DNA from: Verrucomicrobiales bacterium
GTDB taxonomy: Bacteria; Verrucomicrobiota; Verrucomicrobiia; Limisphaerales; UBA1096
Assembly (NCBI GenBank): GCA_002721375.1
Contig: PBKH01000079.1
Location: 1-20,609 of the forward strand
DNA length: 20,609 nt
Reading direction: 5' to 3'
Shown: positions 2,188-20,440 of the stretch, piece after piece
Layout of the letters: the number at the start of each line of letters is the position of its first letter
How positions within the stretch are numbered: the first letter of the stretch is position 1
The notes under the pieces: model-generated
What the model saw: only the letters and a program-made list of their open reading frames with translations
The model's database searches: none
What the model was told of the DNA's origin: nothing
Program-made: the position numbers and the translations under genes

Positions 2188-4338
2188 ATGCATCTTGGCA
2201 TAGGAACAACATCAATCATAAACGTATTCCTCATGCCAAGTTCAAATCAGACATTGATTCACTCACCTTTTCAGGGGTTTCTTGCTGAGCTGATGAATCA
2301 AGGCTATCACTCAGCTTTAACTTTGGTGCCATTGTATCCTCAAGATGCCATTGAGATATTTTTTTCACAAGAAAAGCTTATTGAATTTAGATGCAATATA
2401 AGCGACCCGAACTACTTGTTTGTGAGCCCTGAGTCCGCAGTAGAAATCCTTCAGACTTTGAAAGATCACCCATTTATTTTCATAACTTATCTTCCTAGTG
2501 AAGAATACTCAGTTAAATCAATTGTTAGTGAGTTTAAGTATAGTCCAATAACAATATCTACAGATTCTTGCGCTCAGATAAATCTTGGTGATGATTTTAG
2601 TATTTTTTCATTCGACTCACTTATTAAAAGTAGATTCGAAGAGATACGTAACACAACTCTACTTCCTGAAGAAATCACTAGTCTTTTGGAGAATTACAGT
2701 CCTAGAAAAAATTGGAAAATTCAACAGGATGATTGGGTCTCTAGGGCTCATGGAGTAACGCAAGCCACTGAAGCCGCCCTTGTTAGTTTGGGATTTCAGT
2801 TTAACGATGTGCGTCTAATACCCGGTTCTTTTGACAAGGGTGAGTATATTGACGCAATGGTCAATATTGCGGAAAAAATGCTCTCAAAACTACCGCGAAT
2901 TAAAGCTGGCAATAAATCCGATCTAATCATTTACTCTCCAAGCATTTTCGCACACCAATATAAATTCAATAGCCAATGGTGGAATCAGATATTAAGACTA
3001 ATAAAGGACAAAAAAGCTAAAAGATTCCTGCTAGATGCAGTCTTGAAAAATCCAGCCTATTCAGGCGCAAGCTTTGAAGTAGACGATAGCGCACCGTTAC
3101 CCTTCAAAAACGATGTGGTAAGAGAGGTGTTGTCAATACGTCAGTTTGAACTTGCGTTTACAGTTATCGGAATTCAATGTCTAAGTATTTCGAACTGTTC
3201 ACCTGCTCTCAGATTGCCTAACTCGATAAATTTCCATGTCAGCAAAGTAAAAGAGTTGGAAAGTCTTTACGCATCTTATAAACCAAAGTCTCAGGCGAAC
3301 TTTAAAGAGAAACTAGGTACCTACCTCGAGACATTAAAAGATGAGATCGGGAAAAAACTTCAGAATTTCGTTGAAAAAAACGCGGATTCTTTGACCCTAT
3401 GTACAGATGTGCCAATTGAATGGGTCCGTTTTGGAAAGGTTCCACTGATGTTCTCGCATGAGATTTCTAAGATACATACTACACCTGGAAATCAATTTCT
3501 GATGCAGGCAACTCGTTCGACGACTTTATCAATGCATAAAGATGATTTTCAACATGTAACTGTAATTAGATCATTTAAATCAAATGACCCTCTTCGGAAA
3601 ATTTTAGAAGCTGGATTAAAACAGTATATTGAAATTGATAATACAGTAGAACTTAATATTATCGATGTATCTTCTAAAGCTGAATTCATCAATGCCCTGA
3701 AAGACAATGAAGCCCCAATTCTAATAATTGACTGTCATGGTAACCATGGCGGAAGTGAAGCTAACGGCTGGCTGCAAATAGGAGAAGACAAAGTTGATAC
3801 GTGGTTTTTACCGTGCAAAGGCGAATTGCCCCCTATAGTCATATTAAGCTCCTGTCTAACTGCGGCTTTAGCGGGATCACATGCAAGTGTAGCTAATGGT
3901 TTTTTGAATTTAGGAGCTATAACTGTAATAGGCACATTGCTTCCTGTTGATGGTTTAAAGTCAGCTGCTTTCGTTGGTAGGATTATTTATAGGTTAACAG
4001 GTTTTTTGAATGCACTTTCAGCGCTAGACATTCAGTATATTACATGGAGAGAGTTTATGACGGGGTTTCTAAGAATGTCATTCATTACTGATTTGCTGAC
4101 ACTTATGAAGAGCACTTTTATCAATCATGAGCAATATATGGAAGCACATAGTAAGGCTAATTATTTTATTAATTTAGGTCTTAAAGATTGGTTTGAGAAA
4201 ACTGTTGAGCTCATTTCTGAAATAGCTCAAGTTGAACTCGATATCTTGTATGCCTTTATCGACTCAATAGTTTTTACCGAAACTATGTGTTATAGCCAAA
4301 TCGGTCGACCCGAAACAATACTCATTAATCTGGAATAA
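2188..4338 (+). CDS. CHAT-domain (caspase-like) protease, probable effector
   Basis: The 716-residue protein starts at ATG 2188 behind AAGGA at a normal distance and lies 50 nt after the XRE-ImmA gene. About residues 505-610 match the CHAT (caspase HetF-associated with TPRs) fold. One beta strand ends in DCHGNHGG, giving catalytic His517, and the next strand-turn ILSSCLTAA gives Cys556. After this comes the usual SVANGFLNLGAITVIGT strand-helix region. The first 450 residues are not recognised and have no obvious TPR repeats. The last 100 residues are helical. CHAT proteins act as activated proteases in several bacterial immune systems, for example the type III-E CRISPR partner Csx29/TPR-CHAT and gasdermin-activating proteases. 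Next to a regulator with its own protease domain, it is most likely the toxic or activating effector of a defence module (inference). Confidence 0.8.
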   Translation: MHLGIGTTSIINVFLMPSSNQTLIHSPFQGFLAELMNQGYHSALTLVPLYPQDAIEIFFSQEKLIEFRCNISDPNYLFVSPESAVEILQTLKDHPFIFITYLPSEEYSVKSIVSEFKYSPITISTDSCAQINLGDDFSIFSFDSLIKSRFEEIRNTTLLPEEITSLLENYSPRKNWKIQQDDWVSRAHGVTQATEAALVSLGFQFNDVRLIPGSFDKGEYIDAMVNIAEKMLSKLPRIKAGNKSDLIIYSPSIFAHQYKFNSQWWNQILRLIKDKKAKRFLLDAVLKNPAYSGASFEVDDSAPLPFKNDVVREVLSIRQFELAFTVIGIQCLSISNCSPALRLPNSINFHVSKVKELESLYASYKPKSQANFKEKLGTYLETLKDEIGKKLQNFVEKNADSLTLCTDVPIEWVRFGKVPLMFSHEISKIHTTPGNQFLMQATRSTTLSMHKDDFQHVTVIRSFKSNDPLRKILEAGLKQYIEIDNTVELNIIDVSSKAEFINALKDNEAPILIIDCHGNHGGSEANGWLQIGEDKVDTWFLPCKGELPPIVILSSCLTAALAGSHASVANGFLNLGAITVIGTLLPVDGLKSAAFVGRIIYRLTGFLNALSALDIQYITWREFMTGFLRMSFITDLLTLMKSTFINHEQYMEAHSKANYFINLGLKDWFEKTVELISEIAQVELDILYAFIDSIVFTETMCYSQIGRPETILINLE

Positions 4339-5063: not shown

Positions 5064-6437
5064 TTAATCGTGATAGATAAACCCTAATTCACCTATCGAA
5101 TCCCTAATTTCCACCATGTCCTCTTTAGCGAGTAAGTCATGATCCAATGCTAAGACCAGCCTCTTTTGGGCACGAGTTAGAGCTACGTAAACCCGTTTCC
5201 ATTCTTTATTAAAACGATTTGCTTTACCAATACCATTTTGGGTTAGGTATTTCAGGGTGTTAGAGCTGAGTATGATTATACATGTATCGGCATCCAATCC
5301 CTTAATAGAGTCAATACTTTGAACTTTGAATTGAACGTCATCTTTTGAGCAAGAGTCGCACAGCTCATGTAATTGGGCGAAGTGCTGTTTATTAAGGGTC
5401 AATGAATACCGAGCAATGAGTTTTTGTATGGCTCGCTTATTACCCTCATTGACGACAGTGTCCATAAAGTCAGAAAAAGCGGCTTTAACAAATAAAGTTT
5501 TGTCTTTCTTGTGTTTAGACTCACGTATCATTTCCTCAATCTCTCGTGGGAATGCGTGTTTGTGTTTAGACGAAGTTGTATAACGACCATTCTTTTGGTC
5601 TATACAAACAAGTTGTTTTGCATCTATGTAATTCGTTAGTAGCTCGTCATATCGTTCGTCCACCGATTCTATGTACATTAGTTCACCAACTACTTCTGAT
5701 AGAGATTCCTGCTGTTGGTCTTCATAACAGAAGTTGTTTGATACAGCTAAAATCTCTTTGGGTACTCGTCTGGTTTGATTGTTGATTGGTAAGATATTTG
5801 CGTACTCTTTCGGAGCTATTTTTTTAACGAATGTCTCAAGTGCTTGGGGGTACTTGATAGCTTGTTTTGGATCTCCAATCATGTATACGTCAATATTGTT
5901 GCTGCCCATTACCTCAAAAAAGCGGAGAGCATCGACATCTAAGTCCTGGACTTCGTCGATGAATATCTTGTCAAAGCAACTCTCTAGAATAGCTAGAAGC
6001 CTCTGGACTCTTGCTTTCTTAGCTTTGTTGTTGTGCTTGCTGACGGTTTCATCAACAATCTGTTTAGCAATGTTGTATACATTATCCGTATGAATAACAT
6101 TTATTTCTCTAAGTCGTGCAAAAAGGCTATTTTTGTACTTGGGAGGAGGCAAAATCATTATTGATGTGTCGTTGTAGACATCACCGAGAGTGAATAACGA
6201 AAACGGGTAGATGATTTCGTTCAACAAAAAGCTATGGACAGTCTGAATACAAAGATTCGACGGAATAAAACCATGTCGTTTGATTATCTCTTGCTCTATC
6301 TTCGCTGTGGCTGAATTTGTGTATGTCAGTGCGAATGTCTTTTTGTGACTAGCGCAAGCTTTGATATGCTCTATCAACGATACAGCTAAGCCATAAGTTT
6401 TCCCCGCACCAGCTCCAGCGATTTGGACTTCGATCAT
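5064..6437 (-). CDS. gajB: UvrD/Rep-like SF1 helicase, Gabija GajB-like
   Basis: The 457-residue protein has the SF1 helicase motifs in order. Walker A is AGAGAGKT (7-14), motif Ia lies around TYTNSATAKIE (38-48), Walker B is DEVQD (161-165), motif III is GDPKQ (188-192), and motif V is DSIKGLDADTCIII. Motif VI is YVALTRAQKRL near 417-427. It is shorter than UvrD (about 720 aa) and near the size of GajB (494 aa in the Bacillus cereus system, from memory). The ATG overlaps the stop of the upstream OLD nuclease gene by 4 nt (ATGA), so they are co-translated. In Gabija, GajB works with the GajA nuclease against phage DNA. Order, overlap and size all fit, so the family call is strong, although activity is untested here. 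Confidence 0.88.
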   Translation of the reverse strand: MIEVQIAGAGAGKTYGLAVSLIEHIKACASHKKTFALTYTNSATAKIEQEIIKRHGFIPSNLCIQTVHSFLLNEIIYPFSLFTLGDVYNDTSIMILPPPKYKNSLFARLREINVIHTDNVYNIAKQIVDETVSKHNNKAKKARVQRLLAILESCFDKIFIDEVQDLDVDALRFFEVMGSNNIDVYMIGDPKQAIKYPQALETFVKKIAPKEYANILPINNQTRRVPKEILAVSNNFCYEDQQQESLSEVVGELMYIESVDERYDELLTNYIDAKQLVCIDQKNGRYTTSSKHKHAFPREIEEMIRESKHKKDKTLFVKAAFSDFMDTVVNEGNKRAIQKLIARYSLTLNKQHFAQLHELCDSCSKDDVQFKVQSIDSIKGLDADTCIIILSSNTLKYLTQNGIGKANRFNKEWKRVYVALTRAQKRLVLALDHDLLAKEDMVEIRDSIGELGFIYHD

Positions 6438-8131
6438 GATAGAGCCTCAACAACCTCTGCGATATGAGATGGTAATTTAATATCCAGAGGGTTATGTTCA
6501 TCAATCATCGCATCACAGACATCCAGCATTCTTGCTGTTTTACCGTTAATCATGTGTTTAGACACTTCTTCAATGTCGCCATCCATTTCGAATAAACCAT
6601 TTAGCAAAACTAGGTTGTCTTCTGCTTCTACTAAATCAATTTCAAGTGTGTAATTTGTCGTTGTTCTTACAGTGACATTATCGTGTGCTGCGTCATATGC
6701 ATCGTGTCTGGCTTTAGCTGCATCTGAATTGTCATAATCACGGATAACACCAATCTTCTTGATCTGGTTATCTTTGTTCAAGGTGAGCCATATATCTAAG
6801 AAAGTGGCGTAACCACGTTGACCAATCGGAATAACATCAATGTCGTTGAGGGTTGTTTGTTTAGACAAATAAGTGTTGATAAGCATTTCTTCAGTCGGCC
6901 CCTCTACGAGAATGACTTTATTTGCGAACAGCAGCTTTAGTATGTCGAAATTAGGTCTCTTTCTTAGGTAGTCAACTAGCTTTGTTGGAGTATCGGACAA
7001 ATTAATTGCTTTCTCGCCAGTAAACGCCAAAACATTAGAGATCTTCAGTTTGTTGATAATCGATGGGTTATGAGTAGAAATGATAGTTTGTACAAGCGAA
7101 CCACTATTGCTTGCGCTTTTCTCGATAAAGTCTCTTACTAAACGAAGGTTGTTAACGCTTAAGTGCGCTTCTGGCTCCTCTATGCAGCACAAGTTAAATG
7201 TATCACCACATGACTTGTAGTAAGCAAAGAGGATAAGTATGTAGATGAGATTTCGTTGCCCCAAGCCTTTTTGGTACAGAAATTCATCACCATATTTCAA
7301 AGTGATGTTCGATAAGATGTTCTTCAAATTAGGCAGGTTAGGAGTGCACTCAAGCTGTTTGATAATACTGTCGTAGTTCTTAAAATCTTCATTAGTTCCA
7401 ATAACTTTGTCGAATGTATCAGTATTTTCAATAGCACTAAAAAACTCAGAGTAGGCTGAGTTGATCTGACCTTTGTCGTCATCGCTTAATGTGTTCATAA
7501 GCAGCTTTGTGAAAATGCTATTTGACTTCATTGAACTGCTTTCAGAGAAGTCATCTCGCTCTGCATTGATGCTATGAACACTAACGTGTTTTAAGTCACT
7601 GTATGCGATAGGCTTTTCGTTGTTCACAGATACGATTTGGTAGTCGTAAAGCTCCACAGGTAAAGTAAACCAGTTAATCTCGTGTAATTCTTTACCAGCG
7701 AGTGATTTCTTCACGACCTCAATCAAGTCTTTGTCGTCTTTAGGCTTAAAGTCGTATCTGATTTTGTAAGTTTCTTCATCACCATCAGCCACAATCCACT
7801 TGGCTAATAGAGCTGTTTCATAAGCATCTTTAGGATCACCGAACTCTACAGTTACTGATACTTTAGGAATCTTGTTGAGCAGATTCTCTTCAGTGTCTTC
7901 ATTGACAAAAGACGTCAGAAAATCAATTACGGCATCTTTATTGATGTCAGAAACACTCAAACGTTTATGTTTGAAGTCTATTTGGTTCCCACTCAACGCT
8001 AACGAAAGTGCAGTGAAAAAGTTCGTCTTGCCAGTATCGTTTTCACCAATGACAAGTGTTAGCTGATTAAGCTTGGCTTCGAAAGAGCGAAAGCTACGGT
8101 AGTTGCTTATCGTTACCTTTTTGATATACAT
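6434..8131 (-). CDS. gajA: OLD-family ATPase/TOPRIM nuclease, Gabija GajA-like
   Basis: The frame is open to 8311, but the first 60 codons look non-coding. The start is placed at ATG 8131 (MYIKKVTISNYRSFRSF), the usual OLD/RecF-type N-terminus, preceded by GGAA 7 nt upstream. This gives 565 residues, close to the 578 of the model GajA as I remember it. The ATPase has Walker A GENDTGKTN (29-37), a signature region near QKGLGQRNLIY, and Walker B CIEEPEAHLS (E318/E319). The C-terminal TOPRIM nuclease shows VEGPTEE (E410) and the metal-binding RDYDNSD (D465, D467). Class 2 OLD nucleases paired with a UvrD-like helicase define Gabija, which nicks or cleaves phage DNA when nucleotide pools fall. 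All key residues appear intact. Confidence 0.9.
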   Translation of the reverse strand: MYIKKVTISNYRSFRSFEAKLNQLTLVIGENDTGKTNFFTALSLALSGNQIDFKHKRLSVSDINKDAVIDFLTSFVNEDTEENLLNKIPKVSVTVEFGDPKDAYETALLAKWIVADGDEETYKIRYDFKPKDDKDLIEVVKKSLAGKELHEINWFTLPVELYDYQIVSVNNEKPIAYSDLKHVSVHSINAERDDFSESSSMKSNSIFTKLLMNTLSDDDKGQINSAYSEFFSAIENTDTFDKVIGTNEDFKNYDSIIKQLECTPNLPNLKNILSNITLKYGDEFLYQKGLGQRNLIYILILFAYYKSCGDTFNLCCIEEPEAHLSVNNLRLVRDFIEKSASNSGSLVQTIISTHNPSIINKLKISNVLAFTGEKAINLSDTPTKLVDYLRKRPNFDILKLLFANKVILVEGPTEEMLINTYLSKQTTLNDIDVIPIGQRGYATFLDIWLTLNKDNQIKKIGVIRDYDNSDAAKARHDAYDAAHDNVTVRTTTNYTLEIDLVEAEDNLVLLNGLFEMDGDIEEVSKHMINGKTARMLDVCDAMIDEHNPLDIKLPSHIAEVVEALS

Positions 8132-8188
8132 AAAAATTTCCATATAAAAACATATAAGCGGGATTACCGCTAATGTATCACAGGAAAT

Positions 8189-8216
8189 AGTATAAAAATA
8201 AACCACTTCGTGTAAA
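8189..8216 (-). promoter_or_regulatory. Candidate sigma-70 promoter of gajAB
   Basis: On the minus strand TTTACA (8211-8216) and TATACT (8189-8194) are separated by 16 bp, each one base off consensus. Transcription would begin near 8182 and leave a leader of about 50 nt, in which AGCGG-TAATC-CCGCT can form a small hairpin. This position supports the gajA start at 8131, because the upstream part of the open frame would lie outside the transcript. Confidence 0.5.
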
Positions 8217-8451
8217 TTGCTTCGACTACCTGAGCAAATGCATAGAGGCTTATCTTGCACTGGTGCATAATATAGATAATTACCGACCTTGTCTGAAGCG
8301 GTCTGTCGCAATAGTTATATCCAATGTCCGCTATTCGTCTCAATGCCGCTTTTCAGACGCAGTGCACACCTATTTACCGAAACTGTAATCTCAGATATGA
8401 GTTACTACGTTTTAGCAAATTCTTCTCAGCTCTTCACATGAACGACTTCAA

Positions 8452-8565: not shown

Positions 8566-8934
8566 CTACCAATCTCCATCTAACCCTGACAGGTCGTTAA
8601 TTCCAAAATCATCAAATCCACTATCGATAGACGTTGTGTCTGTCATCCAGTCGGTGTCAGAATGAATATCACATCCACCGATCACATCAGTATCCATAGA
8701 ACAAATATCGAGCGTGGTATCGATACCTAGGTGGTCTGACATATCAGTGCCGCGTGGATTTCCTTCTACGTCGATAGCACCAGGGCAACCTTTTACCCCA
8801 CTAGATAAAAGCGGTAATCCCGTTGCTTCATTAACTCCAGGCGCATCGTAGTCACTCTCATCTAGAGCTGAAGTATTAGCCTCTTCACCGCTTTCCGAGC
8901 AGTGTCCGAACAATTGATAACTTAGTAATGACAT
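8566..8934 (-). CDS. Highly acidic 122-aa protein of unknown function
   Basis: The open frame reaches a GTG at 8964, but ATG 8934 (MSLLSYQLFG) has AGAGGA eight nt upstream and is the better start. The product carries about 26 Asp/Glu against one Lys and one Arg, together with four Cys residues and many Ser, Thr and Gly. The second half is a run of D-rich segments (DTDVIGGCDIHSDTD; DSGFDDFGINDLSG) resembling a loose calcium-binding or DNA-mimic composition, though no classical EF-hand or DxDxDG loop is clear. It abuts the membrane peptide gene downstream. Between a Gabija pair and a hairpin-rich origin-like region, an anti-restriction DNA mimic or a mobile-element structural protein are both possible. 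Neither is shown by the sequence. Confidence 0.65.
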   Translation of the reverse strand: MSLLSYQLFGHCSESGEEANTSALDESDYDAPGVNEATGLPLLSSGVKGCPGAIDVEGNPRGTDMSDHLGIDTTLDICSMDTDVIGGCDIHSDTDWMTDTTSIDSGFDDFGINDLSGLDGDW

Positions 8935-9359
8935 TGTGCTGTCCTCTTGTTTTTTAATCAGCACAAAATTACGTTAATGAAAAATAACCCTAATGCAAAC
9001 CCTTTCCTTTTTACGTCCATCAGCATAGCGGTAGTATTGCAATTCATTAGTAAATTAAAGATGTCGAGTCTTCGTTCATAGAGCGTTAGCCGCCACGCAA
9101 AACTAGTCAGCTCTCAGTTGCTGAAACCCTGTTACATTTTTAGTTCATACCTTTTTCCTAATCATAGTTTTACTAGTTAAAGTTTGCGGCTTCTACTTAA
9201 GAAGCCAGACTCGACATGAATATTCTCCTTCAAAAAAATTTTTTAAATAAAGTCTGATTATGCTTGGGAAGCATGAATTACTAGTTGCAAAGCAAAGTGA
9301 TAACAACAAACTAAAAGTTTGTGTGCAAAAAAGCAGTTGTGAAACAACTCAATAGCTCG

Positions 9360-9397
9360 CTTCAAAAGAAAATTGCGAAGCACATTTTCTTTTGAAG
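9360..9397. repeat. Perfect 14-bp stem inverted repeat
   Basis: CTTCAAAAGAAAAT (9360-9373) and its exact complement (9384-9397) flank a 10-nt loop TGCGAAGCAC. There is no T tract next to it on either strand beyond the stem itself, so it is not a standard terminator. It is the first strong stem of the hairpin-dense region. Confidence 0.9.
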
Positions 9398-9399
9398 CT

Positions 9400-9589
9400 G
9401 GCGCATGTTCGCAGTTGCGAACTACCCCCTATTTTGTTTTGCCCTAGCAAAATTTGATGAATAGGGCGAAAGCGCTATGAATCAAACCCCTTGCCGCAAG
9501 CAACGCTAGCGCAACGAATAGCTGTGTATGAAATATAAAGATAGAAGTGTGCAGAATGGGGGGTAGTGCGCAGCACGGGAACATGCGCC
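9400..9589. repeat. Long-range two-block inverted repeat
   Basis: The left arm holds GGCGCATGTTC (9400-9410) and CTACCCCC (9422-9429). The right arm holds the exact complements in mirrored order, GGGGGTAG (9559-9566) and GAACATGCGCC (9579-9589). The unpaired spacers between blocks are 11 and 12 nt, so the two arms are symmetric, 19 paired bases each, around a 129-nt centre. That centre contains its own stems (CCCTAT/ATAGGG and TTTTGC/GCAAAA). Symmetry of two separate blocks is far beyond chance and argues for selection on structure. Confidence 0.9.
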
Positions 9590-9624
9590 TTAAGCGTTAG
9601 TGCTAGACGCGAATGCGTCGTAGA

Positions 9625-9660
9625 GTCGCTGCGTTGACGAACGTCAACATCAGCAGCGAC
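9625..9660. repeat. Two-level stem-loop
   Basis: The outer stem GTCGCTGC (9625-9632)/GCAGCGAC (9653-9660) encloses an inner perfect palindrome GTTGACG-AA-CGTCAAC (9633-9648), with only ATCA unpaired on the right side. Together with the neighbouring GACGC-GAAT-GCGTC hairpin at 9606-9619 it forms a compact double structure. Confidence 0.9.
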
Positions 9661-9679
9661 GGGCACTATAAGCGTTTAC

Positions 9680-9701
9680 GCTCACAACGAACGTTGTGAG
9701 C
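9680..9701. repeat. Perfect 10-bp palindrome with AA centre
   Basis: GCTCACAACG (9680-9689), AA, then CGTTGTGAGC (9692-9701). It has the same AA-centred design as the inner stem at 9633-9648 and lies 150 bp ahead of the MobC-like gene. It could be a protein-binding palindrome or a cruciform. Confidence 0.9.
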
Positions 9702-9716
9702 TTCCCTTTTTCAGGT

Positions 9717-9779
9717 GGGTTATAAACAGGGAGCCTCAGTGGGCGTTAGCGAGTTCAAGAAACTCCCTGTTAAAAACCC
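9717..9779. repeat. 17-bp inverted repeat (15/17) around a 29-nt spacer
   Basis: The arms 9717-9733 and 9763-9779 both contain AACAGGGAG or its complement CTCCCTGTT as an exact 9-bp core and extend to GGGTT/AACCC outside it, with two mismatches. It ends 76 bp before the MobC-like start. An inverted repeat with a spacer of this size resembles the relaxase-binding inverted repeat beside many nic sites, but no nic site is identified. Confidence 0.85.
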
Positions 9780-9855
9780 GAAAGCGATCCTTTAACACTT
9801 AAATTTTGCATTAGCTGTTCCTTTATAGCTTCTCAATTAATAAACAAGGAACACA

Positions 9856-10725
9856 ATGATAAACACAAACACACCCTTTCAAAACGCAGACCGCTGTCAA
9901 ACACACTTCGATATCGACATGAGATTTAAAAAAAGTACCAATGCCGTTCACAGAGGCCGAGAAAAAAAATGTTTAGCGATACTTCTTGCCGCAAGGTATG
10001 GCTTTGTATCTGCGATTACGTGCCAAGCAATATGGCAGATTAAGCGGCACAAAGTTTTGGAGTCTCTAAATAGAATAGTGAAAGAAGGCTTTCTATCTAT
10101 TGCAGAAACAGATAGGGCAGCCGATGGGCGTATATATGTACTAACCCATTCTGGTGCTAAGTTTGCGTCAGATCTGATGCGAATAGACGTCCCGTTCCGT
10201 TCTGCGCAAGAACCCATCACTCAGGTTAATCAGAATGCAATCATGCACGACTCAATTATGAGTTTTGTACTAAGCCTGGGATTGCAAAATCAAACAAAGG
10301 ATGGCATCCCAAAACCTCTATGGGATGGTTATTTAACTGAACTTGAATTTAAGCGAATTCACAGTTCATCAAACATAAAAAATGTCGATGCGTTGGTACG
10401 GCTAGCCAATGGCGAAGTAGCTGCTGTTGAACTAGAAGCGTCATTCAAGCGGAAGCTGCAACACGAAAAAACGTTACTCAAATTGCGTGACGCAATGCTA
10501 GGTGGAAATAGACTTTACGATAAAGTCTTCATTATTCCCTGCTCTCAAAAGATTAATAACGACACACAACGCTTCCACAAACAGCTGTTTGAGGAGATGC
10601 CTCATCGTTATGATCGTAAAACGAAACGGCCTCTGCTAAGTGAAACTGATGCCAAAAAACTCCAAGAAAAAATCATCTATAGAACAAAATTTATCGACAC
10701 AATAGAGCAGACATTTTATCGATAA
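9856..10725 (+). CDS. Replication-relaxation/MobC-like protein (probable)
   Basis: The 289-residue protein starts at ATG 9856 with AAGGA five nt upstream. Residues about 35-110 form a winged helix (CLAILLAARYGFVSAITCQAI, ending in the wing RIYVLTHSGAKFASDL). Residues about 155-220 look like a PD-(D/E)xK-type core: DALVRL (D178), GEVAAVELEAS (E192, E194), then a basic helix FKRKLQHEK. This layout is that of the replication-relaxation/MobC family (Pfam Replic_Relax), whose members help relaxases act at oriT or take part in plasmid replication. No relaxase gene lies in the window. The long structured region directly upstream fits an oriT that this protein serves. The alternative is a stand-alone DNA-binding nuclease. 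The terminator 17 bp after the stop makes it monocistronic. Confidence 0.65.
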   Translation: MINTNTPFQNADRCQTHFDIDMRFKKSTNAVHRGREKKCLAILLAARYGFVSAITCQAIWQIKRHKVLESLNRIVKEGFLSIAETDRAADGRIYVLTHSGAKFASDLMRIDVPFRSAQEPITQVNQNAIMHDSIMSFVLSLGLQNQTKDGIPKPLWDGYLTELEFKRIHSSSNIKNVDALVRLANGEVAAVELEASFKRKLQHEKTLLKLRDAMLGGNRLYDKVFIIPCSQKINNDTQRFHKQLFEEMPHRYDRKTKRPLLSETDAKKLQEKIIYRTKFIDTIEQTFYR

Positions 10726-11370: not shown

Positions 11371-11437
11371 GTTGATACCATTAGTTAGTCCTAAAGATAT
11401 CTAAGCTCGCTAGAGGGAAATTTTTGCACAAAAGAAA

Positions 11438-11463
11438 AAAGCAGACATAAGAACGTCTGCTTT
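11438..11463. terminator. Bidirectional intrinsic terminator
   Basis: The stem AAAGCAGAC (11438-11446)/GTCTGCTTT (11455-11463) with loop ATAAGAAC is flanked by an A run on the left and TCTATTTTC on the right, so it works in both directions. It is the first terminator after the S1-like gene and could end the 11789-19226 operon, leaving a 3' tail of about 325 nt. Confidence 0.8.
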
Positions 11464-11788
11464 CTATTTTCTTTGCTCTGCCGATCATCAGATAAGCCAG
11501 ACAGCGCATTCGTGCTGACATATCAACTAGCGAGCCTAGCGCTAGCCCTTCACTGCTATAAAAGCTTTGTAAGCAGCCGGAGACCTTCGTTGGCATCCAA
11601 TCACGTTGCGGATTCTAGGAAATTCGCGGGTTGGCAGTTTACGAAGTGATGTTTGAGCGCCCTCAGTTAAAGTTTCAAATCCTCATTTATTTATAAGCAC
11701 ATGTAGAGAGAAAAAGTGAACAAGGGCAACCTTTACCACAAAAAATACACTACGCTATCTGTCCACTTCACCTTTAACTGTAAAATTT
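11464..11788. other. Non-coding stretch between terminator and S1-like gene
   Basis: This 325-bp stretch has no convincing gene. A 71-codon frame on the minus strand (11381-11596) runs through the terminator hairpin and has mixed composition, so I do not call it. A short palindromic patch CTAGCGAGCCTAGCGCTAGC lies near 11529-11548. The stretch is probably the 3' untranslated tail of the operon, or holds a small RNA that ends at the terminator. I see no direct support for an RNA promoter. Confidence 0.4.
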
Positions 11789-12847
11789 TCACAGCAAACC
11801 AGCGATATCAGAGAATGATAAAGTGTTTCTGTCTGTAAAAGTCAGTTCTATTACTTTTTCTTCATCATTTAGACTTGATACGAAAGCCTCGATCTCGTTA
11901 CCAAGTTGAATATCTTGCTCTGCTGTTGATTTAATTCGGCCTTGTACATTATTCATTAAATCGAGAACATAATAATCATCTAAACTTGCTATTATTTTTC
12001 CTGTCACCTTTTGACCAAGGGTGAAGTTTTCACGCTCTAGTTCCCAGCAGACGTCTTTTGGACTTCTTATACTTAATGAAATTTTTTTACTTTGGATATC
12101 AAGTCGTTTTATAACGACATTCACTTCATCGCCAACCTGTAGTAATTCTGAAGGAGATTTAATTCCTTTTACCTGTAAGTTCATTTCAGATTTATGTAGG
12201 AGACCATCAATACCACCAATATCAATGAAGGCACCATAATCAGTAACATTCTTCACGAACCCACGGATAATTTGCCCAGCACTTAAAGTTTCAATTGCTA
12301 TTCTGGGAGGTCTTTCAGTTTTCTTTTCTTCAAAACCAAACCTTGATAAAACAACATTATTTCTCTTTGCATCTGCTTTAATAACTTGAAAATCCAACTC
12401 TCTACCTTCTAGTGGACTACTGTCTCCCATTGGGATACCCGACTTTGAACCAGGTAAAAAGGCCCGAATGCTGTTAACCTCAACCGTAAACCCACCATTC
12501 ACCCTGCCTGTAATCACTCCTTTAACTGGAGTTTTTTCCTCAAGTGATTTTTCTATATTGACCCAAGCCTCATGCCTTTTCGCTTTTTCTCTAGAAAGAA
12601 TGAGGTCTCCAAACCCATCTGAATCAAAATCGAGGGCAACATCTACTTCATCTCCAACTTTCAGATTTACACGCCCTTCACTATCGCGAAATTGATCAAT
12701 GGGAATGCAGGATTCATATCTTTGACCCGCTTTAACAAGTACGACGTCTTTATCAATTGAAACAACCGTTCCTTTCACAATTGTGCCAGGTCTATCTTCT
12801 AGTTTTCTTAGTGCCTCTTCGAACAACTCAGCAAAATTTATTGTCAT
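11789..12847 (-). CDS. Truncated ribosomal protein S1 paralogue, four S1 domains
   Basis: The 352-residue protein aligns by eye with E. coli S1 from its first residues (MTINFAELFEEALRKLEDRPG; S1 starts [21 protein letters not shown]) through shared blocks. Examples are SREKAKRHEAW (85-95), GGFTVEV-SIRAFLPGS, KRNNVVLSR (161-169) and VTDYGAFIDIGGIDGLLH (201-218). OB-fold S1 domains fall at about 21-87, 107-170, 191-260 and 278-338. The fourth is divergent and the last two domains of the usual 557-residue S1 are missing. In S1 the first two domains dock on the 30S subunit via S2 and the later ones bind mRNA, so this copy keeps docking and part of mRNA binding. It has its own AAGGA eight nt from the ATG and follows the 473-aa gene by 12 nt, so it is part of the defence-like operon, not a stray fragment. 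Confidence 0.85.
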   Translation of the reverse strand: MTINFAELFEEALRKLEDRPGTIVKGTVVSIDKDVVLVKAGQRYESCIPIDQFRDSEGRVNLKVGDEVDVALDFDSDGFGDLILSREKAKRHEAWVNIEKSLEEKTPVKGVITGRVNGGFTVEVNSIRAFLPGSKSGIPMGDSSPLEGRELDFQVIKADAKRNNVVLSRFGFEEKKTERPPRIAIETLSAGQIIRGFVKNVTDYGAFIDIGGIDGLLHKSEMNLQVKGIKSPSELLQVGDEVNVVIKRLDIQSKKISLSIRSPKDVCWELERENFTLGQKVTGKIIASLDDYYVLDLMNNVQGRIKSTAEQDIQLGNEIEAFVSSLNDEEKVIELTFTDRNTLSFSDIAGLL

Positions 12848-12859
12848 AAGTTACATCCT

Positions 12860-14281
12860 TTATACTAGTGCTAATGACCCCAAATTATTAGGCTGGTCAA
12901 ATGATCTCATTCCATCAACATAATCATTAACCAACGATTGGATTTTTCTAACAATGGATTTATCTTTTGACATAAATCCTACTGGCATAGTTACAGGTAA
13001 AAGGTCTGGCTTGGTCAAGTGATAAAGCACTGTAACAAATTGATCTTCCATGAAAATCACTTCAACACACCCATTCAAAAAGCCCTCTAATAGTCCTTTG
13101 ATAAAGGCCGATTCTTTGCCAAAGTCATTTAACCAGCGTCTGATTGCCTGTTTATCGTTAGTATCTGGTACGGGTAAGAAAATTTCTGCTTCATACAGCT
13201 TTTGAGGTTTCTTAGACCTTGTGTTAGCAAAATTTTTCAGATCATCTATTACGGTTTTCAGTCTTGAGCTTTTTCCCCAATATTTATCTGAAGGAGCGAT
13301 CCAAGTCAGGCGTGAAACTTTTGGATTGTTTGATTTTTTACTGACTTCATTGGCCTTTTTGATAGACTCCAATACCAATTTCCAATTTTCTTTGGTATAA
13401 GCAGGCCCCACTAATGGTAGAGGAATCTTGGGGTTCATCTCTGACTCAGCTCTTTTAGCTGTAAAAGCGGGTACATCAATTGAAGAATTATTGAAAAATT
13501 GTACTGTCCAATTGTCTCCGATAGCTTTCATTGCTTCAGCCACTTCAGGTATGTTAGTTCGACTCCCATCAATAGACAGCGCCTTTGTAACCAGCTTATT
13601 AACCTCGTTAGAGTTTTCAAGCGATTCATAGTCATCCCGCTCTAGCGGATTACCCTCTAAATCAATTTTAAATAAGTTAGTCAACCTAAGAGAGTCTTGA
13701 CCTAGCTTATTTACAGAATCAAAACTGTAAATTGTAGGCTTTTCGTTACTGTCAGATTTCATCCCTTTGAGCCATTCTTTATCGTAATATTGATAAAACT
13801 TTCTTTGAAAAGTCGTCTTTGCGTGATTGGCGCTATTTGCAACAATCTCATTATCAACATTCAAAGCAATACCGAACTTCCAGTTATCCCTAATCCTTCT
13901 TGAACCAAGACAATTAAACCCACCGATTTCGAATGACAAAATTGATGATGTCTCCATGATAGACGATGTTTTAGGTAACTTACCTAAATCTTCAAAGTAA
14001 TCTTCCGACTGTGGTGTCAATAATATGTCACCTGATTCTGATATCTCTAAATCCCCCGTGCTCATTAAGTCAGATAGAGCTTCATTTAGTTCTTCTTTAT
14101 TTAAGCCCAAATAAGTCGCTATCTGATTTGGCTTTAGTGGGGAAAGCTGAACAATCCTCAGAACGAATTCTCGGATGAATGAAAGCCTTTCCTTTGTAAC
14201 GTAAGAATATTGGATATTAAATCTGTGTACAGGAACAATAAAATCAATCTCGTGAAAAGCGAGGTGAAGATCTTCGTACAT
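12860..14281 (-). CDS. 473-aa winged-helix protein of unknown function, middle gene of the helicase operon
   Basis: AAGGAG lies seven nt upstream of ATG 14281, and the gene starts 13 nt after the helicase stop. Residues about 32-95 form a helix-turn-helix/winged helix (FVLRIVQLSPLKPNQIATYL, then LSDLMSTGDLEISESGDILL), like the N-terminal recognition modules of many defence proteins. The rest (about 100-460) is mixed alpha/beta. It includes TWIAPSDKYWGKSSRL (a basic, surface-like segment near residue 320) and a C-terminal block WLNDFGKESAFIKGLLEGFL followed by VEVIFMEDQFVTVLYHL. I looked for the paired HxK motifs of phospholipase-D nucleases and for PD-(D/E)xK signatures and did not find them. 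It probably pairs with the kinase-helicase and could recognise a nucleic acid. The function is unassigned. Confidence 0.8.
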   Translation of the reverse strand: MYEDLHLAFHEIDFIVPVHRFNIQYSYVTKERLSFIREFVLRIVQLSPLKPNQIATYLGLNKEELNEALSDLMSTGDLEISESGDILLTPQSEDYFEDLGKLPKTSSIMETSSILSFEIGGFNCLGSRRIRDNWKFGIALNVDNEIVANSANHAKTTFQRKFYQYYDKEWLKGMKSDSNEKPTIYSFDSVNKLGQDSLRLTNLFKIDLEGNPLERDDYESLENSNEVNKLVTKALSIDGSRTNIPEVAEAMKAIGDNWTVQFFNNSSIDVPAFTAKRAESEMNPKIPLPLVGPAYTKENWKLVLESIKKANEVSKKSNNPKVSRLTWIAPSDKYWGKSSRLKTVIDDLKNFANTRSKKPQKLYEAEIFLPVPDTNDKQAIRRWLNDFGKESAFIKGLLEGFLNGCVEVIFMEDQFVTVLYHLTKPDLLPVTMPVGFMSKDKSIVRKIQSLVNDYVDGMRSFDQPNNLGSLALV

Positions 14282-14294
14282 TCTTAAACTCCTT

Positions 14295-17200
14295 TTACTG
14301 AACGTTAGAGATCATGATGGAATAGCCATCACTTAAATCTTTCGATTCAATGAAACTCAAGACTTTTCCAAGCGGTAGGTCACTGTTCCGGTTTTGCCAC
14401 ATATGCTTTGAACCAATAATGAGTAAACGATCCATTGCTCGGGATAGAGCTACATTAATCCTATTTGGAGTCTTCAAAAATCGTGGTTTCATGTCTCTAC
14501 TTGATCGAGTAATTGACAAAATGATGATTCGGTTCTCTTTACCTTGGTAGCTGTCAACAGTGTCAATTTTAACCAGTTTTTTGAAATCCTCATCCCACTC
14601 CAATTCATTAAACTTCTTTCGAATAAGCCTTTTCTGCTCGCCATACATGCAAATGACGCCAATCGCCGCTTCATTTTCTTTAACAACACTTTGCAGGGAA
14701 GTTTTAAAATGTCTTCTTTGCGCGATATCTTTTAATAAATTAATAATAATGTCAGCTTCACACCGATTATATATACTCACACCTTTATCATCTTGGTGGT
14801 AGCATTTAGAACCAAGGTTTGAGGTATCCAACCAAGTCACGGTATTTTGCAACTCTCTTGGCGCATTCCCATATATATCAGGAATAGCTCTTTCGCCGTT
14901 TTTCAAATCACCATCATAAAAAGATGAAGAGACTAAATCTCCTATTGGAGCTGCCATACGATATTGGGTCAAAAGTGCTGCACCAGCTTGCTTTCCATAA
15001 CTGGACTCAAATGCGCGAGCAAAGTCACTTTGCAAAACCGCATCCAGATCAGTTTCTCTGCTATCTATGCCTAGCTTTTGTGCCAATGCCTTTTTATGTG
15101 GTTCTTGGTATAAAGGAGGGAGTTGTCGGTGATCACCAACTAACAAAATCCGTTTTCCTGACTGCATCGCAATTGCAAGCTCACTAGCAATTGAGCGAGC
15201 CGCCTCGTCAATGATAACCCAATCATACTGATTCGCAGCAATTCCAATGTATCTTTGTCCAATACCAACACAGGTTCCGGTTACAAGCTGCCTAGAACGA
15301 GCAAAAAATTCTTCGTAATTAGCCTTTTCTGTATCCAACACGTCCAACATATCGATTGAAATATTAGCTAGGGCTACCGCTTTCCTGGCTTCATGAGGCC
15401 GTACAGAAAAATCGTGATTAAGCTTATTGATTATTTCTTGTTTGGCTTCCCGTATATCTCTTTTTTCTTCGAATACTAGACGATAATCATCTATAAGACT
15501 TCTTCTAATACTTTGATCCAATTCAGAAATAATCATCTTCAGCGAACGTTTATCTTCTTCATCCTCTTGAGATGAGAAGCTTTTCATTGCGTTAGCAAAT
15601 GCATCAATCTGCTTAAAAAGGTTTACTTGAGCGATTACTAATGTAGATAGATACTCAGCATCTAAACCCAATGGAGTCGATAACACTTCGACACGTTGTT
15701 TCAACTCGGCATGAAACAATGCTCTTTTTTCAGAAACAAGGGCATTTGAGTACACATCTTTTAAACCATCAGAAACAGCTCTTTCGCTATTACTAAATCT
15801 AACGACCTGTATGGAAGTATCGAGTCTTGAACAATGGGAACGAATTCTTTCTGCTGCGGTGTTAACCGCCTCATGTGATTGGCTAACTAGTAAAATTCTT
15901 TTTACGTTCTGCTTTTCTAGCAAATAGTGGACAAATGCTGCAATAAACTCAGTTTTACCCGTCCCAGGCGGCCCCTGCAACATAGATAAAGGGCCGTTTT
16001 GGATAATATTTTGGAATGCATTTCTTTGTTGAAGATTCAGACTTATTTTGTTGCCATGATCATCTTCTCTATCGTAGCGAGCAAAATCACTGTCCGTAAC
16101 TTTTACAGGATATTCAGTTGCTGTTAGTGAGCAATTAGGATCAAAATATTCAGTCAATCGACTGATAACTCCCTCATTATCTAATAGCCTCTCTAGTGCA
16201 GCCTTTCGCTTAGTGTATGAAGCTTTATCCTGCTTTGTCCTAAAGTAAACAACTTCTCCATCTTTTAATGCCCGAGTAATTGGTCTGACGCGCCCTACTC
16301 GAACCTCATTCATCGCAGAGTTTTTTAAAATTACCTCACCTAAAAAGATTTCCTTTTCGCCTTCGATCTTTAACGCTTCAACTGTGTCATCTTTTCTAAA
16401 CTTCCCAAGAATATCTACATCAGACGAGTAAGGGATAATCAATTGATCATTAGTTTCTTTTACTTCAACGATTTCACCCGTCATTTCAATGCAGGGATAT
16501 GACTCAGTCTCCGTGTCTATAATTGCTTGCCAAAGCTTAACCGTAGATATGTTTAGTCCAATATCCTTCGTAGATTTAGAATCGTCTATCGATTTGAATG
16601 CTGCTTTAAGCTGCTCAGTAAGTCCATGTTCTTGGTGAGTAGTTTCTTCAGGCTTTAGAACGATGGATTTGGTTCGTTGAAATGCTTCATTTTTCTGCAA
16701 TGCTACAGTTAGACTGTTTAATTTTGACGTAGTGCCTGATTTTATTCTGATTGGAAAATCTACAACGAACTGTGATGAGTCAATTATACTCGGTATAACA
16801 GAGCTTCTTGGTTTAGGTTCAAAACCCACACCAAGAGTATTTTCTCTACCTCGAAAGATGCTTTTAAAAATCCCACCTATTCCATGCATTTCTATAAACA
16901 AATCTCCGTGCTCTTTGGCTTTGGAGACTTGAACGTATAATTTGCCGTTGTCAGGGTAGATAGTAAGTTCTTCAAAGGGCTTATTAATGGTAACTTCTAT
17001 TAGGTTGCCAGTATCACTTGCTCTTGAATGTAGTGCTTTTTTAAACCTACTCAGAGTTTTAAAACCAGCTTCTCTATCGTTTAATTCTTTAACAATGCAA
17101 TCTGCTATTGAAGAATAGTCTTCTGACTCCTTTCCCCACGAAATGCCTAGTAGTTCTGATGCCATTCGTATAACAGCGAAGTTATCTCGCTCAAACGGTG

Positions 17201-19226
17201 TTGAATTATCAATGTATTCAGGGCTGTATCGATTATTTTTCACCTCATTAATGTCAGCTGAAAAATCGGGAATATCGATCAAGTAGATTTTGATGCTTTC
17301 ATCAGTCTGCTGAAGTAGTACGTTCTCGGGATGTAAATCACCATGACTAATGCCGAGGCCATGTAGATGCTCAATGACCTTAATCAAACTTTCTATAAGT
17401 TCAATTTTCTTATGAGATTCGACCTCAAGGCTTCCCCAATGTTTACCGTCAATTTTATCGGTAACTAAGTATAAGCTAGCTGATTTGTGAGCTAATCCGA
17501 AATCCCTAATAGTCGGAATATATTCTGGAGAAATTGTTTGTAGCTCTTCTAGTTGCTTTAAAAAATTGAGCACTTTAAAACAAAGAGCAGGGTTATTCGA
17601 ACTTGGTAGAATGTTCAACCAAGCCTTTACTATATGCCCATCCGACTCATAAACTTCTTTTTCGTCATTCTCCAAGATAAAAAAGTCGTCTCTGTAAACT
17701 CTAGTGTGATTAACCTGCTTTATATAAGGCTCTAACTCCGCAACATCAAAGTCAAAAGAGGTTTCGCAATTAGGATCTGCTTCAAAAAATTTATCAAAAA
17801 ACTCGTCGGCGTTAGTAAAACAATCCTCTCTCAGCGCTTGCTGCAATACGGCAGAGTACCATGCCGTTGAATTAGCGATCTCTTCGTTTAAACTTTCACA
17901 ACTCTTAACAGAAATTCGCTTTCCATTCAGAATATGCCAAGCCATAACTGCTAGACTGTTAACATCACTCTGGAATGGCGTCTGATTAGGGTTGTATGTA
18001 TCAAAAAGATCATTTACAGAAAGCTGTTGACGATAATCTCCAACTGTTCCCGCTGGCTGGTAATAAGCGGATATAAAGTTAGACAATGCGACTTCTTTGC
18101 TAGGGGATAACCATATACTGTGATCCCCTAAATCTCTGTGTGCGACCTTAATTTTGTGCAGATCTGCAAATTTAGCAATTAATAGCTTTACAATATTTAC
18201 CCGATCAATCTCACTGTAGTTGTCAGCATATTTAATAATAAATTCATTAAACCGACTATGGTGCGATGGGATCTCATAAAGTTCGCTATACTCCGTCGTT
18301 ACATTATCTTTTTCAAGACTAGACAACGCCCTCAAACAATTTTTATACAACTCATTATTCTTGTGCTTTATGTACTGCAAGACTTGTTTTTCACGCGATA
18401 CAATTTCGAATCTACCCTCAGGCGTTCTTCCTTTTACTCCTTCGAAATTGTCAAAGTTCCAGATACGTAACAACGCCGTATCTTGTCTTGAAGATTCAGA
18501 GACTGCATGAAATTCTTTATAGATCTTTTTGGGATGTTCATCTATCAGCTCACTGGCTTTATAACCTCCAACGCTAACCTGTTTCGGCGCAGTAGACTCA
18601 TCACTAAATACTCCATCTAGAGTTCTAAAATCTAGATTTAACGTTTTAGTATTTTCGAAAGGCCTAAATCTTTTATTGAAGACATCTTCATTTGCAAACT
18701 TTAAAAACTCTTCGAGAGAGATAGTATGTTTTTTGTCCTTTTCTGAAATGTTGTGGAATTTAGCGTTCCCACACATAACCACAAAAAAATCAACCCAAGG
18801 CAGTTTCTTACTGGTGAGTTTGTGTTTTACCTTGTCTAGCTTATCTTTTAATAGAAAAACTTTGTTCTGGGTAACGCTCACGGGAGAGCGCCCCATATCC
18901 TTGCTACCCTTGTACCATTTGTCAGCGTGTGACTTGATATCAGCACCGTTCCAATCTTTTAGCTCAACAATCAGGACGTTACAGTGGGTAACAATTACTA
19001 GGTCAAACTCGCCTTCATTTCCTTTTGTATCGACGTACCGGAAGCCTGCATAGCCTTTCCAGGGAAACATCGATGAGCCACCAATACTTTTTAATTGGTC
19101 TTGTAAAGAGCCTCCCCGTACAGGCTTTGAATCTTTTATTTTAGGCTTTTGAAATGCTTGCTTAATTCTTTCTATAGCTTTGACTTCTTGGGCATGAAGC
19201 CCACCGTTCCATGTTTTAACTTCCAC
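14295..19226 (-). CDS. NERD / tandem kinase-like / SF1 (COG1112-type) helicase, 1643 aa, Mokosh-like
   Basis: A GTG start at 19226 follows AGGA at seven nt. Domains in order: a NERD nuclease-related domain (about 8-125; FDLVIVTHCNVLIVELKDW carries the ExK-type strand), then a first protein-kinase-like domain (about 240-480). That domain has HRDLGDHSI at 363 but SNF where DFG should be. A second kinase-like domain (about 510-750) has HGDLHPEN at 628 and an LIDIPDF acidic strand. A divergent linker comes next, then a UPF1/COG1112-type helicase. Its Walker A is GPPGTGKT at 1085-1092, motif II DEAA at 1340, motif III GDHRQLPP, motif V DSYQGKENRIIIL and motif VI NVALSRAMDRLLIIG. As I recall it, Mokosh type I joins a kinase-helicase to a separate phospholipase-D nuclease. 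Here no such partner exists and NERD may supply the nuclease. It is first in a three-gene operon. Confidence 0.85.
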   Translation of the reverse strand: MEVKTWNGGLHAQEVKAIERIKQAFQKPKIKDSKPVRGGSLQDQLKSIGGSSMFPWKGYAGFRYVDTKGNEGEFDLVIVTHCNVLIVELKDWNGADIKSHADKWYKGSKDMGRSPVSVTQNKVFLLKDKLDKVKHKLTSKKLPWVDFFVVMCGNAKFHNISEKDKKHTISLEEFLKFANEDVFNKRFRPFENTKTLNLDFRTLDGVFSDESTAPKQVSVGGYKASELIDEHPKKIYKEFHAVSESSRQDTALLRIWNFDNFEGVKGRTPEGRFEIVSREKQVLQYIKHKNNELYKNCLRALSSLEKDNVTTEYSELYEIPSHHSRFNEFIIKYADNYSEIDRVNIVKLLIAKFADLHKIKVAHRDLGDHSIWLSPSKEVALSNFISAYYQPAGTVGDYRQQLSVNDLFDTYNPNQTPFQSDVNSLAVMAWHILNGKRISVKSCESLNEEIANSTAWYSAVLQQALREDCFTNADEFFDKFFEADPNCETSFDFDVAELEPYIKQVNHTRVYRDDFFILENDEKEVYESDGHIVKAWLNILPSSNNPALCFKVLNFLKQLEELQTISPEYIPTIRDFGLAHKSASLYLVTDKIDGKHWGSLEVESHKKIELIESLIKVIEHLHGLGISHGDLHPENVLLQQTDESIKIYLIDIPDFSADINEVKNNRYSPEYIDNSTPFERDNFAVIRMASELLGISWGKESEDYSSIADCIVKELNDREAGFKTLSRFKKALHSRASDTGNLIEVTINKPFEELTIYPDNGKLYVQVSKAKEHGDLFIEMHGIGGIFKSIFRGRENTLGVGFEPKPRSSVIPSIIDSSQFVVDFPIRIKSGTTSKLNSLTVALQKNEAFQRTKSIVLKPEETTHQEHGLTEQLKAAFKSIDDSKSTKDIGLNISTVKLWQAIIDTETESYPCIEMTGEIVEVKETNDQLIIPYSSDVDILGKFRKDDTVEALKIEGEKEIFLGEVILKNSAMNEVRVGRVRPITRALKDGEVVYFRTKQDKASYTKRKAALERLLDNEGVISRLTEYFDPNCSLTATEYPVKVTDSDFARYDREDDHGNKISLNLQQRNAFQNIIQNGPLSMLQGPPGTGKTEFIAAFVHYLLEKQNVKRILLVSQSHEAVNTAAERIRSHCSRLDTSIQVVRFSNSERAVSDGLKDVYSNALVSEKRALFHAELKQRVEVLSTPLGLDAEYLSTLVIAQVNLFKQIDAFANAMKSFSSQEDEEDKRSLKMIISELDQSIRRSLIDDYRLVFEEKRDIREAKQEIINKLNHDFSVRPHEARKAVALANISIDMLDVLDTEKANYEEFFARSRQLVTGTCVGIGQRYIGIAANQYDWVIIDEAARSIASELAIAMQSGKRILLVGDHRQLPPLYQEPHKKALAQKLGIDSRETDLDAVLQSDFARAFESSYGKQAGAALLTQYRMAAPIGDLVSSSFYDGDLKNGERAIPDIYGNAPRELQNTVTWLDTSNLGSKCYHQDDKGVSIYNRCEADIIINLLKDIAQRRHFKTSLQSVVKENEAAIGVICMYGEQKRLIRKKFNELEWDEDFKKLVKIDTVDSYQGKENRIIILSITRSSRDMKPRFLKTPNRINVALSRAMDRLLIIGSKHMWQNRNSDLPLGKVLSFIESKDLSDGYSIMISNVQ

Positions 19227-19248: not shown

Positions 19249-19588
19249 TTATCCAACGACTTTTAGCAAATCGCTGTAGCTTGCTACCATGTTGAATTTG
19301 ACCTTTTCAGCATCATCGTCAGATTCCACTTCCTGTTCGAGTCGCTCGAAGAATTTCTTGGCGCACTCAATTTTCGCTTCTTCAATCTTCTTCAGTTGCA
19401 TTACTTGGAAAAAATGTGGGAGAAGTGAATATAAATTCTAACTCAGCTATGTTTGTTAGTTCTTTCTTTAGTGCTTCAAATGCATAAATAGAAAAGAAGG
19501 AAGCCGCAATTTTTAACTTACTACCTGGATGAATCGTCTCTCTTAAATCATCGCCAAGTAGGTTGTTAATATTATCGATTATATTCAT
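19249..19588 (-). pseudogene. Gutted PLD-type helicase/restriction gene: N-terminus joined to C-terminus
   Basis: ATG 19588 has AAGGAG eight nt upstream and encodes 68 residues. The first 60 or so (NLLGDDLRETIHPGSKLKIA, then AFEALKKELTNIAELEFIFT) look like the start of the large helicases that carry an N-terminal phospholipase-D nuclease domain. The frame ends at 19382. A different frame then reads MQLKKIEEAKIECAKKFFER to VASYSDLLKVVG and a stop at 19249. That segment looks like the last residues of a type III restriction or DEAD/SNF2-type helicase. Both ends are well preserved but the roughly thousand-residue middle is absent, so this is an internal deletion that joined the ends out of frame. 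It lies 22 bp upstream of the kinase-helicase start, so its promoter may now drive that operon. Confidence 0.65.
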
Positions 19589-19811
19589 GTCTACTACTCC
19601 TTGTAACCAAGCACAGAAGCCAACAACGAGCCTTTACCGTATTGTTGAGCTTATAGCCTATCCAATTGATTATATTACCTCATCAAGCCCTACTCATCTA
19701 ACTTATTCATCATTACTTAAATTGCATACAATTCCATAACTTCATGCCTCTATCACGAGGTTAAGATGACCTACAAAAAAAATCGCCACCGAACATATTT
19801 TTCAAATAAAA

Positions 19812-20270: not shown

Positions 20271-20440
20271 CTAGTCGGGAAAATCTTCGCTAATGTCGTC
20301 GAAGTCAAACTTCATTTGTTCTGAAAAGAATTCGAAGTCGTCCTCTGTCCACTCTGCATATAACAAAGGTTCACTCACTACTACACCAATTAATTCTCTT
20401 ATCACGGGGAGATAGTCTGAATGAGGTGGTTTAATTGAGT
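20271..20440 (-). pseudogene. 5'-truncated gene cut by an insertion sequence
   Basis: On the minus strand a frame runs to TAG at 20271-20273 and reads SIKPPHSDYLPVIRELIGVV, then ...SEPLLYAEWTEDDFEFFSEQ and ends DDISEDFPD. It has the acidic, regular composition of a genuine C-terminus. It remains open only to about 20471, and no start codon with a ribosome binding site occurs. Just beyond 20440 comes the leader of an IS3-type OrfA on the opposite strand, so the 5' part was most likely displaced by that insertion. The boundary at 20440/20441 (next bases TGACCAGTCC) is a guess. Confidence 0.55.

Follow-up and report, generated by a model that had tools for sequence, protein, structure and literature searches.

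Why should a defence operon encode a shortened form of ribosomal protein S1? The window, which is the whole of a 20609-base contig (C79) from a 78%-complete assembly, encodes on its minus strand an S1 paralogue, here called S1L, as the third gene of such an operon (Table 1). The frame is intact, with an ATG start in the open reading frame listing of the window, and Pfam S1 domains match it in three stretches (E 7.3e-31). The original prediction knew of no described system of this design. This does not hold for the kinase-helicase operon, which is already known as Mokosh type I: MkoA matches the PADLOC MkoA model with an E value of 0, covering residues 1–1638, and MkoB matches PADLOC PDLC03923 nearly over its full length (E 7.1e-115). 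A wholly new defence system is thereby ruled out. Judged by these model matches, S1L is an addition to a known defence system, and the paired genes are not new.

The mkoA–mkoB pair defines Mokosh type I, in agreement with the PADLOC models. In the window the two genes adjoin on the same strand, 13 nt apart, and a NERD domain (residues 55–150), a kinase region (Pkinase, 576–648) and an SF1 helicase (AAA_11, 1063–1373; AAA_12, 1399–1607) are found within the one protein, MkoA. S1L comes on top of this pair, and the operon is therefore termed a variant. Among solved structures, NAM7/UPF1 and SEN1 stand nearest to the MkoA helicase in sequence. Foldseek matches of MkoB are weak, and comprise F13 (E 2.7e-4), phospholipase D (4e-3), NucT and Zucchini; the VIA-align list contains winged helices only. 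The accessible text of PMC10952713 gives a PLD-like domain to both type I and type II of Mokosh, and that of PMC11291487, citing earlier work, attributes to Mokosh the degradation of viral transcripts. No explanation of target recognition by Mokosh was found in the accessible portions of the Mokosh literature.

Table 1. Features of the window, with position, strand and basis of assignment
Feature	Position	Strand	Basis
S1L (ribosomal protein S1 paralogue), 352 aa, third operon gene	11789..12847	-	ORF, Pfam, NCBIfam
N-terminal helix + OB1 + OB2 of S1L, residues 1–172, putative ribosome-docking half; Phe5, Phe9, Glu10, Arg43 and Phe79 present; R139/R142 sites lost	12332..12847	-	Alignment
OB3 of S1L, residues 188–262; 36/73 residues as in Alteromonas S1; loop longer by 2 residues	12062..12286	-	Alignment
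Degenerate OB4 of S1L, residues 274–337; 10-residue deletion common to S1L of L007	11837..12028	-	Alignment
New C-terminal tail of S1L, residues 338–352; motif SF[SA]DI common to L007; short predicted helix 345–351 (low confidence)	11792..11836	-	Alignment, model
AAAGGA, Shine–Dalgarno-like site of S1L, 8 nt 5' of ATG; overlaps mkoB stop codon	12856..12861	-	Read from sequence
mkoB, 473 aa: winged helix 33–106 + fold with weak phospholipase-D-superfamily matches	12860..14281	-	PADLOC, structure searches
mkoA, 1643 aa, GTG start: NERD, kinase region, UPF1/IGHMBP2-like SF1 helicase	14295..19226	-	Pfam, PADLOC, NCBIfam
Promoter-like site GTTACA-18-TATAAT, 10/12, upstream of mkoA	19578..19607	-	Consensus match only
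Terminator-like hairpin downstream of S1L	11436..11465	-	Consensus match only
RmrT- and RmrA-like genes	361-2137	+	PADLOC E 3.3e-32 and 4e-127
BovA-like protein (Borvo)	2188-4338	+	PADLOC E 8e-202; CHAT match just under cut-off
GajB and GajA (Gabija), frames overlap 4 nt	5064-8311	-	PADLOC
132-aa Asp-rich ORF	8566-8964	-	ORF list
MobC-like replication-relaxation protein	9200-10725	+	Weak NCBIfam match, under cut-off

S1L lies 12 nt from mkoB on the same strand and has a Shine–Dalgarno-like site of its own, as had been predicted. Coexpression with the kinase-helicase was also proposed; the genes share a strand, and the consensus scan of the window listed no minus-strand terminator-like hairpin between mkoB and S1L. 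A promoter-like site and a terminator-like hairpin flank the operon, in scans that are weak for the window as a whole (14 promoter-like sites against 25.3 in shuffles; 10 terminator-like sites against 5.3). Additional promoter-like sites fall within the genes. S1L itself matches no PADLOC family at E 0.001.

The closest relatives of S1L are three 352-aa proteins (P0065, P0066 and P0067, at 98, 86 and 84% identity), and the next step down is full-length S1 at 48% identity, the nearest named full-length proteins being those of Alteromonas (best 120 of 7997 matches in the protein search). No further 352-aa protein occurs among the best 120 matches of a profile search. A full-length 556-aa S1, P0185, scores above the other listed full-length S1 proteins against the S1L profile (576 bits, best 120); it does not have the OB4 deletion described below. 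Among 16 MkoB-bearing reference loci, one from Gammaproteobacteria bacterium 42_54_T18 (L007) has MkoA, MkoB and S1L in identical order, the three proteins being 67, 54 and 45% identical to those of the window. Its S1L is also 352 aa, begins 32 nt after mkoB, and is missing from both protein search lists; such genes can therefore escape those searches. These two S1L operons, of the window and of L007, were read directly. An S1-like protein with a conserved docking half, encoded in a defence operon, is thus borne out by the intact frame, by its MkoA and MkoB neighbours and by its presence in a distant homologous operon.

S1L had been taken for an S1 with the last third gone. OB5 and OB6 are indeed absent from all five S1L proteins, but the change goes beyond simple truncation, with a degenerate OB4 and a new 15-residue tail. 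The best match to the NCBIfam rpsA models (E 1.9e-96) reaches 323.6 bits against a cut-off of 918 for full-length rpsA, because the final third is absent. S1L resembles the bS1 of Alteromonas and relatives in OB1–OB3 and in the main docking residues, and is unlike it in length (352 against about 556 aa), in its C-terminal part and in its place in a defence operon. Identity between window S1L and Alteromonas S1 is 67% in the N-terminal helix, 67% in OB1, 65% in OB2, 49% in OB3, 19% in OB4 (12/64 residues, plus a 10-residue loop deletion) and 7% in the tail, so that the docking half is the best-kept part; Alteromonas and E. coli S1 are 83–89% identical across the helix and OB1–OB4 (86–89% for OB1–OB4 alone). 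The OB4 loop deletion is found in 5/5 S1L rows and in none of 58 host S1 rows, and the OB3 loop is one to two residues longer in S1L rows. L123, in which no S1 frame was detected, was dropped from the S1 comparisons, as were host loci with X or repeated sequences. Aside from the deletion, OB4 of the window is no closer to that of L007 (16/64 residues) than OB4 of L007 is to host S1 (16/64). The tails of the window and L007 have 4/15 residues in common, a likeness that 680 of 100000 shuffles equalled.

Within the close family the pattern is different. Residues identical between the window and P0066 number 53/70 in OB1, 59/68 in OB2, 69/75 in OB3, 61/64 in OB4 and 14/15 in the tail; for P0067 the corresponding values are 47/70, 64/68, 65/75, 55/64 and 15/15. 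OB1 is thus the most variable domain, OB4 and the tail are conserved, and docking is therefore not the strictest constraint. OB4 and the tail may be the family's own functional part, with OB1–OB2 an inherited docking part. The structure model of S1L is weak (mean pLDDT 69.6, pTM 0.32) and was excluded from fold searches; strands resembling those of OB folds and a short helix at the C terminus appear in it with low confidence.

In E. coli, S1 contacts uS2 or bS21 through Phe5, Gln7, Phe9, Glu10, Lys43, Gly78 and Phe79 (PMC10123108), and F5A or F9A abolishes ribosome and S2 binding (PMC4288201), according to the accessible text of both papers. Phe5, Phe9, Glu10 and Phe79 are conserved in all five S1L rows, and position 43 is Lys in two and Arg in three, so the main uS2-docking residues of bS1 are present. 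Other positions vary: residue 7 is Glu or Lys, Asp39 differs, P0067 has Val for Gly78, the four rows of the window clade have Asn in place of Lys117 in the mRNA pocket of OB2, and residue 120 is Tyr in L007. In the window protein itself, Glu replaces Gln7, Lys replaces Asp39, Arg replaces Lys43 and Asn replaces Lys117. OB1–OB3 is reported as the minimal S1 that binds the 30S subunit and retains most functions on structured mRNAs (PMC3858243), and S1 fragments with the N-terminal half displace native S1 (PMC3296737). The conserved contacts and this fragment behaviour make docking of S1L on the 30S subunit likely. Like the E. coli truncations of those two studies (1-106, 1-194, delta4-6 and delta56, as far as their accessible text describes them), S1L is an N-terminal docking half without the C-terminal domains; unlike these laboratory constructs, it is natural and has an altered OB4 and a tail.

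S1L is probably a real component of Mokosh. The reading preferred here, to which we give a probability of roughly 45%, is that it serves as a ribosome adaptor, docking at the 30S mRNA exit and bringing MkoA and MkoB to messages. OB1 would dock on uS2 in competition with host S1, and OB4 and the tail would bind MkoA or MkoB. The UPF1-like helicase-kinase and the PLD-like MkoB would thereby be placed where messages enter the ribosome and, once MkoA is triggered, phage messages might be unwound and cut, or initiation stopped. This is supported by the retention of OB1–OB3 and the uS2 residues, the identical gene order in L007, the private OB4 and tail, and the UPF1-like helicase. As S1L looks able to dock, this rare Mokosh variant, from a marine branch, may intervene directly as translation begins.

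UPF1/NAM7 helicases act on ribosome-linked messages. Those of nonsense-mediated decay resemble MkoA in the helicase, whereas MkoA also has NERD and kinase regions, and we know of no S1 partner in nonsense-mediated decay. A fuller version of the adaptor reading, which is somewhat doubtful, is of an immune system that keeps watch over messages on the ribosome. In it, a ribosomal protein taken over by the operon would tether the helicase-kinase, together with a nuclease-like partner, at the mRNA exit of the 30S subunit, while shedding the S1 sites that phages modify. If true, this would parallel in function the ribosome-linked decay of eukaryotes. The natural variant with an S1 paralogue is a direct and testable clue to Mokosh acting on messages when translation is initiated; the two Phe residues needed for S1 docking offer a handle on the docking role. 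No publication linking Mokosh with ribosomal protein S1 was found, bioRxiv and most subscription papers being outside the search. The accessible text of papers on ribosomal protein S1 with anti-phage defence or defence islands, including PMC12839542, PMC3353972 and PMC5512222, yielded no S1 paralogue in defence, and among the papers listed for S1/rpsA paralogues none was relevant by title.

The chief rival is unlikely. S1L might be a dominant-negative S1 that accumulates or is released on infection, displaces native S1 and stops initiation on leadered messages, an abortive arrest in which leaderless messages are spared, with MkoA and MkoB restraining or triggering it. When S1 1-106 (or 1-194) is overproduced in E. 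coli, growth is inhibited and ribosomes carry less native S1, and the 1-106 fragment inhibits bulk but not leaderless translation, as the accessible text of PMC3296737 reports; in S1L, too, the docking part is kept, OB4 is degenerate and OB5–OB6 are absent. However, OB3 is retained, and an S1 with OB1–OB3 remains able to support initiation, with growth that is extremely slow (PMC3858243, accessible text), so S1L may not be a pure inhibitor. In addition, constitutive expression of the operon would be expected to be costly, and a toxin–antitoxin layout is not seen at the locus.

Phage factors that use S1 suggest two further explanations. T4 ModB is reported to modify S1 at R139/R142 in OB2 and at R485/R487 in OB6 (PMC10468400, accessible text). 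Both OB2 residues are Arg in 58/58 host S1 rows; in 4/4 window-clade rows R139 is deleted, R142 is replaced by Gly and the OB2 loop is rebuilt (residues 135–142, about 12422–12445), and OB6 with its sites is absent from S1L. From the alignment, the lost ModB sites of the window clade are a lead rather than evidence of a function. Stimulation of RegB requires S1 D4–D5, according to the accessible text of PMC9409239. S1L could thus be a phage-proof stand-in for S1 that phage factors have modified or recruited, sustaining some translation or defence; L007 keeps R139 and has Gln at 142, however, and loop drift would look identical, and this explanation is clearly improbable.

Still less probable is that S1L is a sensor or bait, engaged by S1-binding phage proteins and so triggering MkoA. 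Several phages use S1, and OB1–OB2, reported to interact with Q-beta replicase (PMC9409239, accessible text), are kept in S1L; bait should preserve the sites that are bound, however, and the parts relevant to RegB and ModB are degenerate, missing or, for the window clade, mutated, D5 and the OB2 ModB sites among them, which argues against bait for those two factors.

The original prediction looked to homologous operons for a conserved S1 paralogue. One is present in the distant L007, but such a gene is regularly absent elsewhere: 26 of the 27 other distinct Mokosh I loci examined lack an S1 homologue (tblastn, E 1e-2), and S1L as a part of all Mokosh I is ruled out. The 27 loci derive from 32 (L059 and L125 repeat L018, L066 repeats L007, and L057 repeats L017, at 100% over the common stretch; L021 ends 74 nt past the match). 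They cover about 1.5 kb or more after mkoB each, and in L058, L060–L065 and L126 only about 1.5 kb, so that a farther S1 gene would be missed there; they are not independent, because several are close kin (L014, L016 and L017 at 93–96%). The L007 genome has a separate full-length rpsA besides S1L, and in the genomes of L018, L019 and L022, with Mokosh lacking S1L, a single full-length rpsA is present and a second such S1 is not. Taken together, the comparisons mark S1L as a real gene with an intact frame, specific to one clade, that stands third in the operon of an already described defence system.

MkoB was found in 9/394 genomes in the order, and 2/108 in the genus, of the Pseudoalteromonas genome of L018 (G385), and in 1/369 in the class of G384. 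In the class of G000, the matches of 12 other genomes to the MkoB model spanned no more than 92 positions (best 41.9 bits), and these genomes were not counted as having Mokosh I. P0002 was sought in 108 genomes, with relatives of 36% and 30% only. Searches with S1L in the 108 genomes of the Pseudoalteromonas genus gave only host S1 (107 single matches at E 1e-60, frames of at least 558 aa). In 395 genomes of the family of G386, 104 reached E 1e-125, all with frames of at least 554 aa, and 291 gave nothing at that strict limit, which a diverged S1L could escape; in 59 genomes of the genus of G1473 there was no match at E 1e-100, a search without a positive control and so uninformative. Viral contigs contained no relative of S1L or MkoB, and phage records only S1 below 60% identity (33 records; best-coverage rows 39–49%). 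Four of 127 plasmid records with MkoB were inspected. In a Vibrio harveyi plasmid (L070) the Mokosh genes look broken, with MkoA in five tblastn pieces and nothing annotated there.

The MkoB tree unites the window and L007 with P0002 and P0024 in a single clade (99/97) that contains none of the 14 S1-free reference loci, so the presence of S1L amounts to one change, a single gain. For MkoA, the proteins of L015 and L020, split or partial, were dropped. That S1L is a passenger, a decayed rpsA copy that chanced to sit after mkoB and has no Mokosh role, has a slim chance of being right: its absence from nearly all other loci and trees that permit two separate captures would suit it, but the frame is intact, the length is constant across 45–98% identity, the position is the same in two operons as diverged as the window and L007, the deletion and tail motif are private to S1L and common to both, and the MkoB tree needs one change. 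Two outcomes would have told against the original prediction. The first, homologous operons that regularly lack the gene, is seen. The second, a recent chance duplication of rpsA, is ruled out by the 48% identity to the nearest host S1 and the derived, private OB4 deletion common to the five S1L rows.

The trees of S1L itself conflict. On OB1–OB3 the window clade stands beside Alteromonas S1, and L007 near the S1 of Colwellia and Thalassotalea. A single clade of the five S1L rows is rejected on OB1–OB3 (p 0.036 with 22 rows, 0.009 with 63) and, with 63 rows, on OB1–OB2 (p 0.027), but not on OB2–OB3 (0.37). Because the OB4 deletion is common to all five and the MkoB tree needs no more than one gain, we favour one origin of S1L, the docking half having perhaps been exchanged later against local rpsA. 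Two separate captures that converged would also fit, as would a long-branch error behind the conflict.

The rpsA of the assembly is only 36% identical to S1L, and a 119-bp stretch (20418-20536) is 98.3% identical to four plasmids of Alteromonas mediterranea in a region for an IS3-family transposase. With Alteromonas as source of the nearest named S1, this stretch indicates that the contig is probably of Alteromonas origin and misplaced in its assembly. The remainder of the contig encodes further defence-related genes (Table 1), including RmrT- and RmrA-like genes of the Rosmerta system. The MobC-like gene and the intergenic stretch before it are possibly a mobilisation region; this region had no match among plasmid records. 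The intergenic stretch, of 650 bases, looks palindrome-rich.
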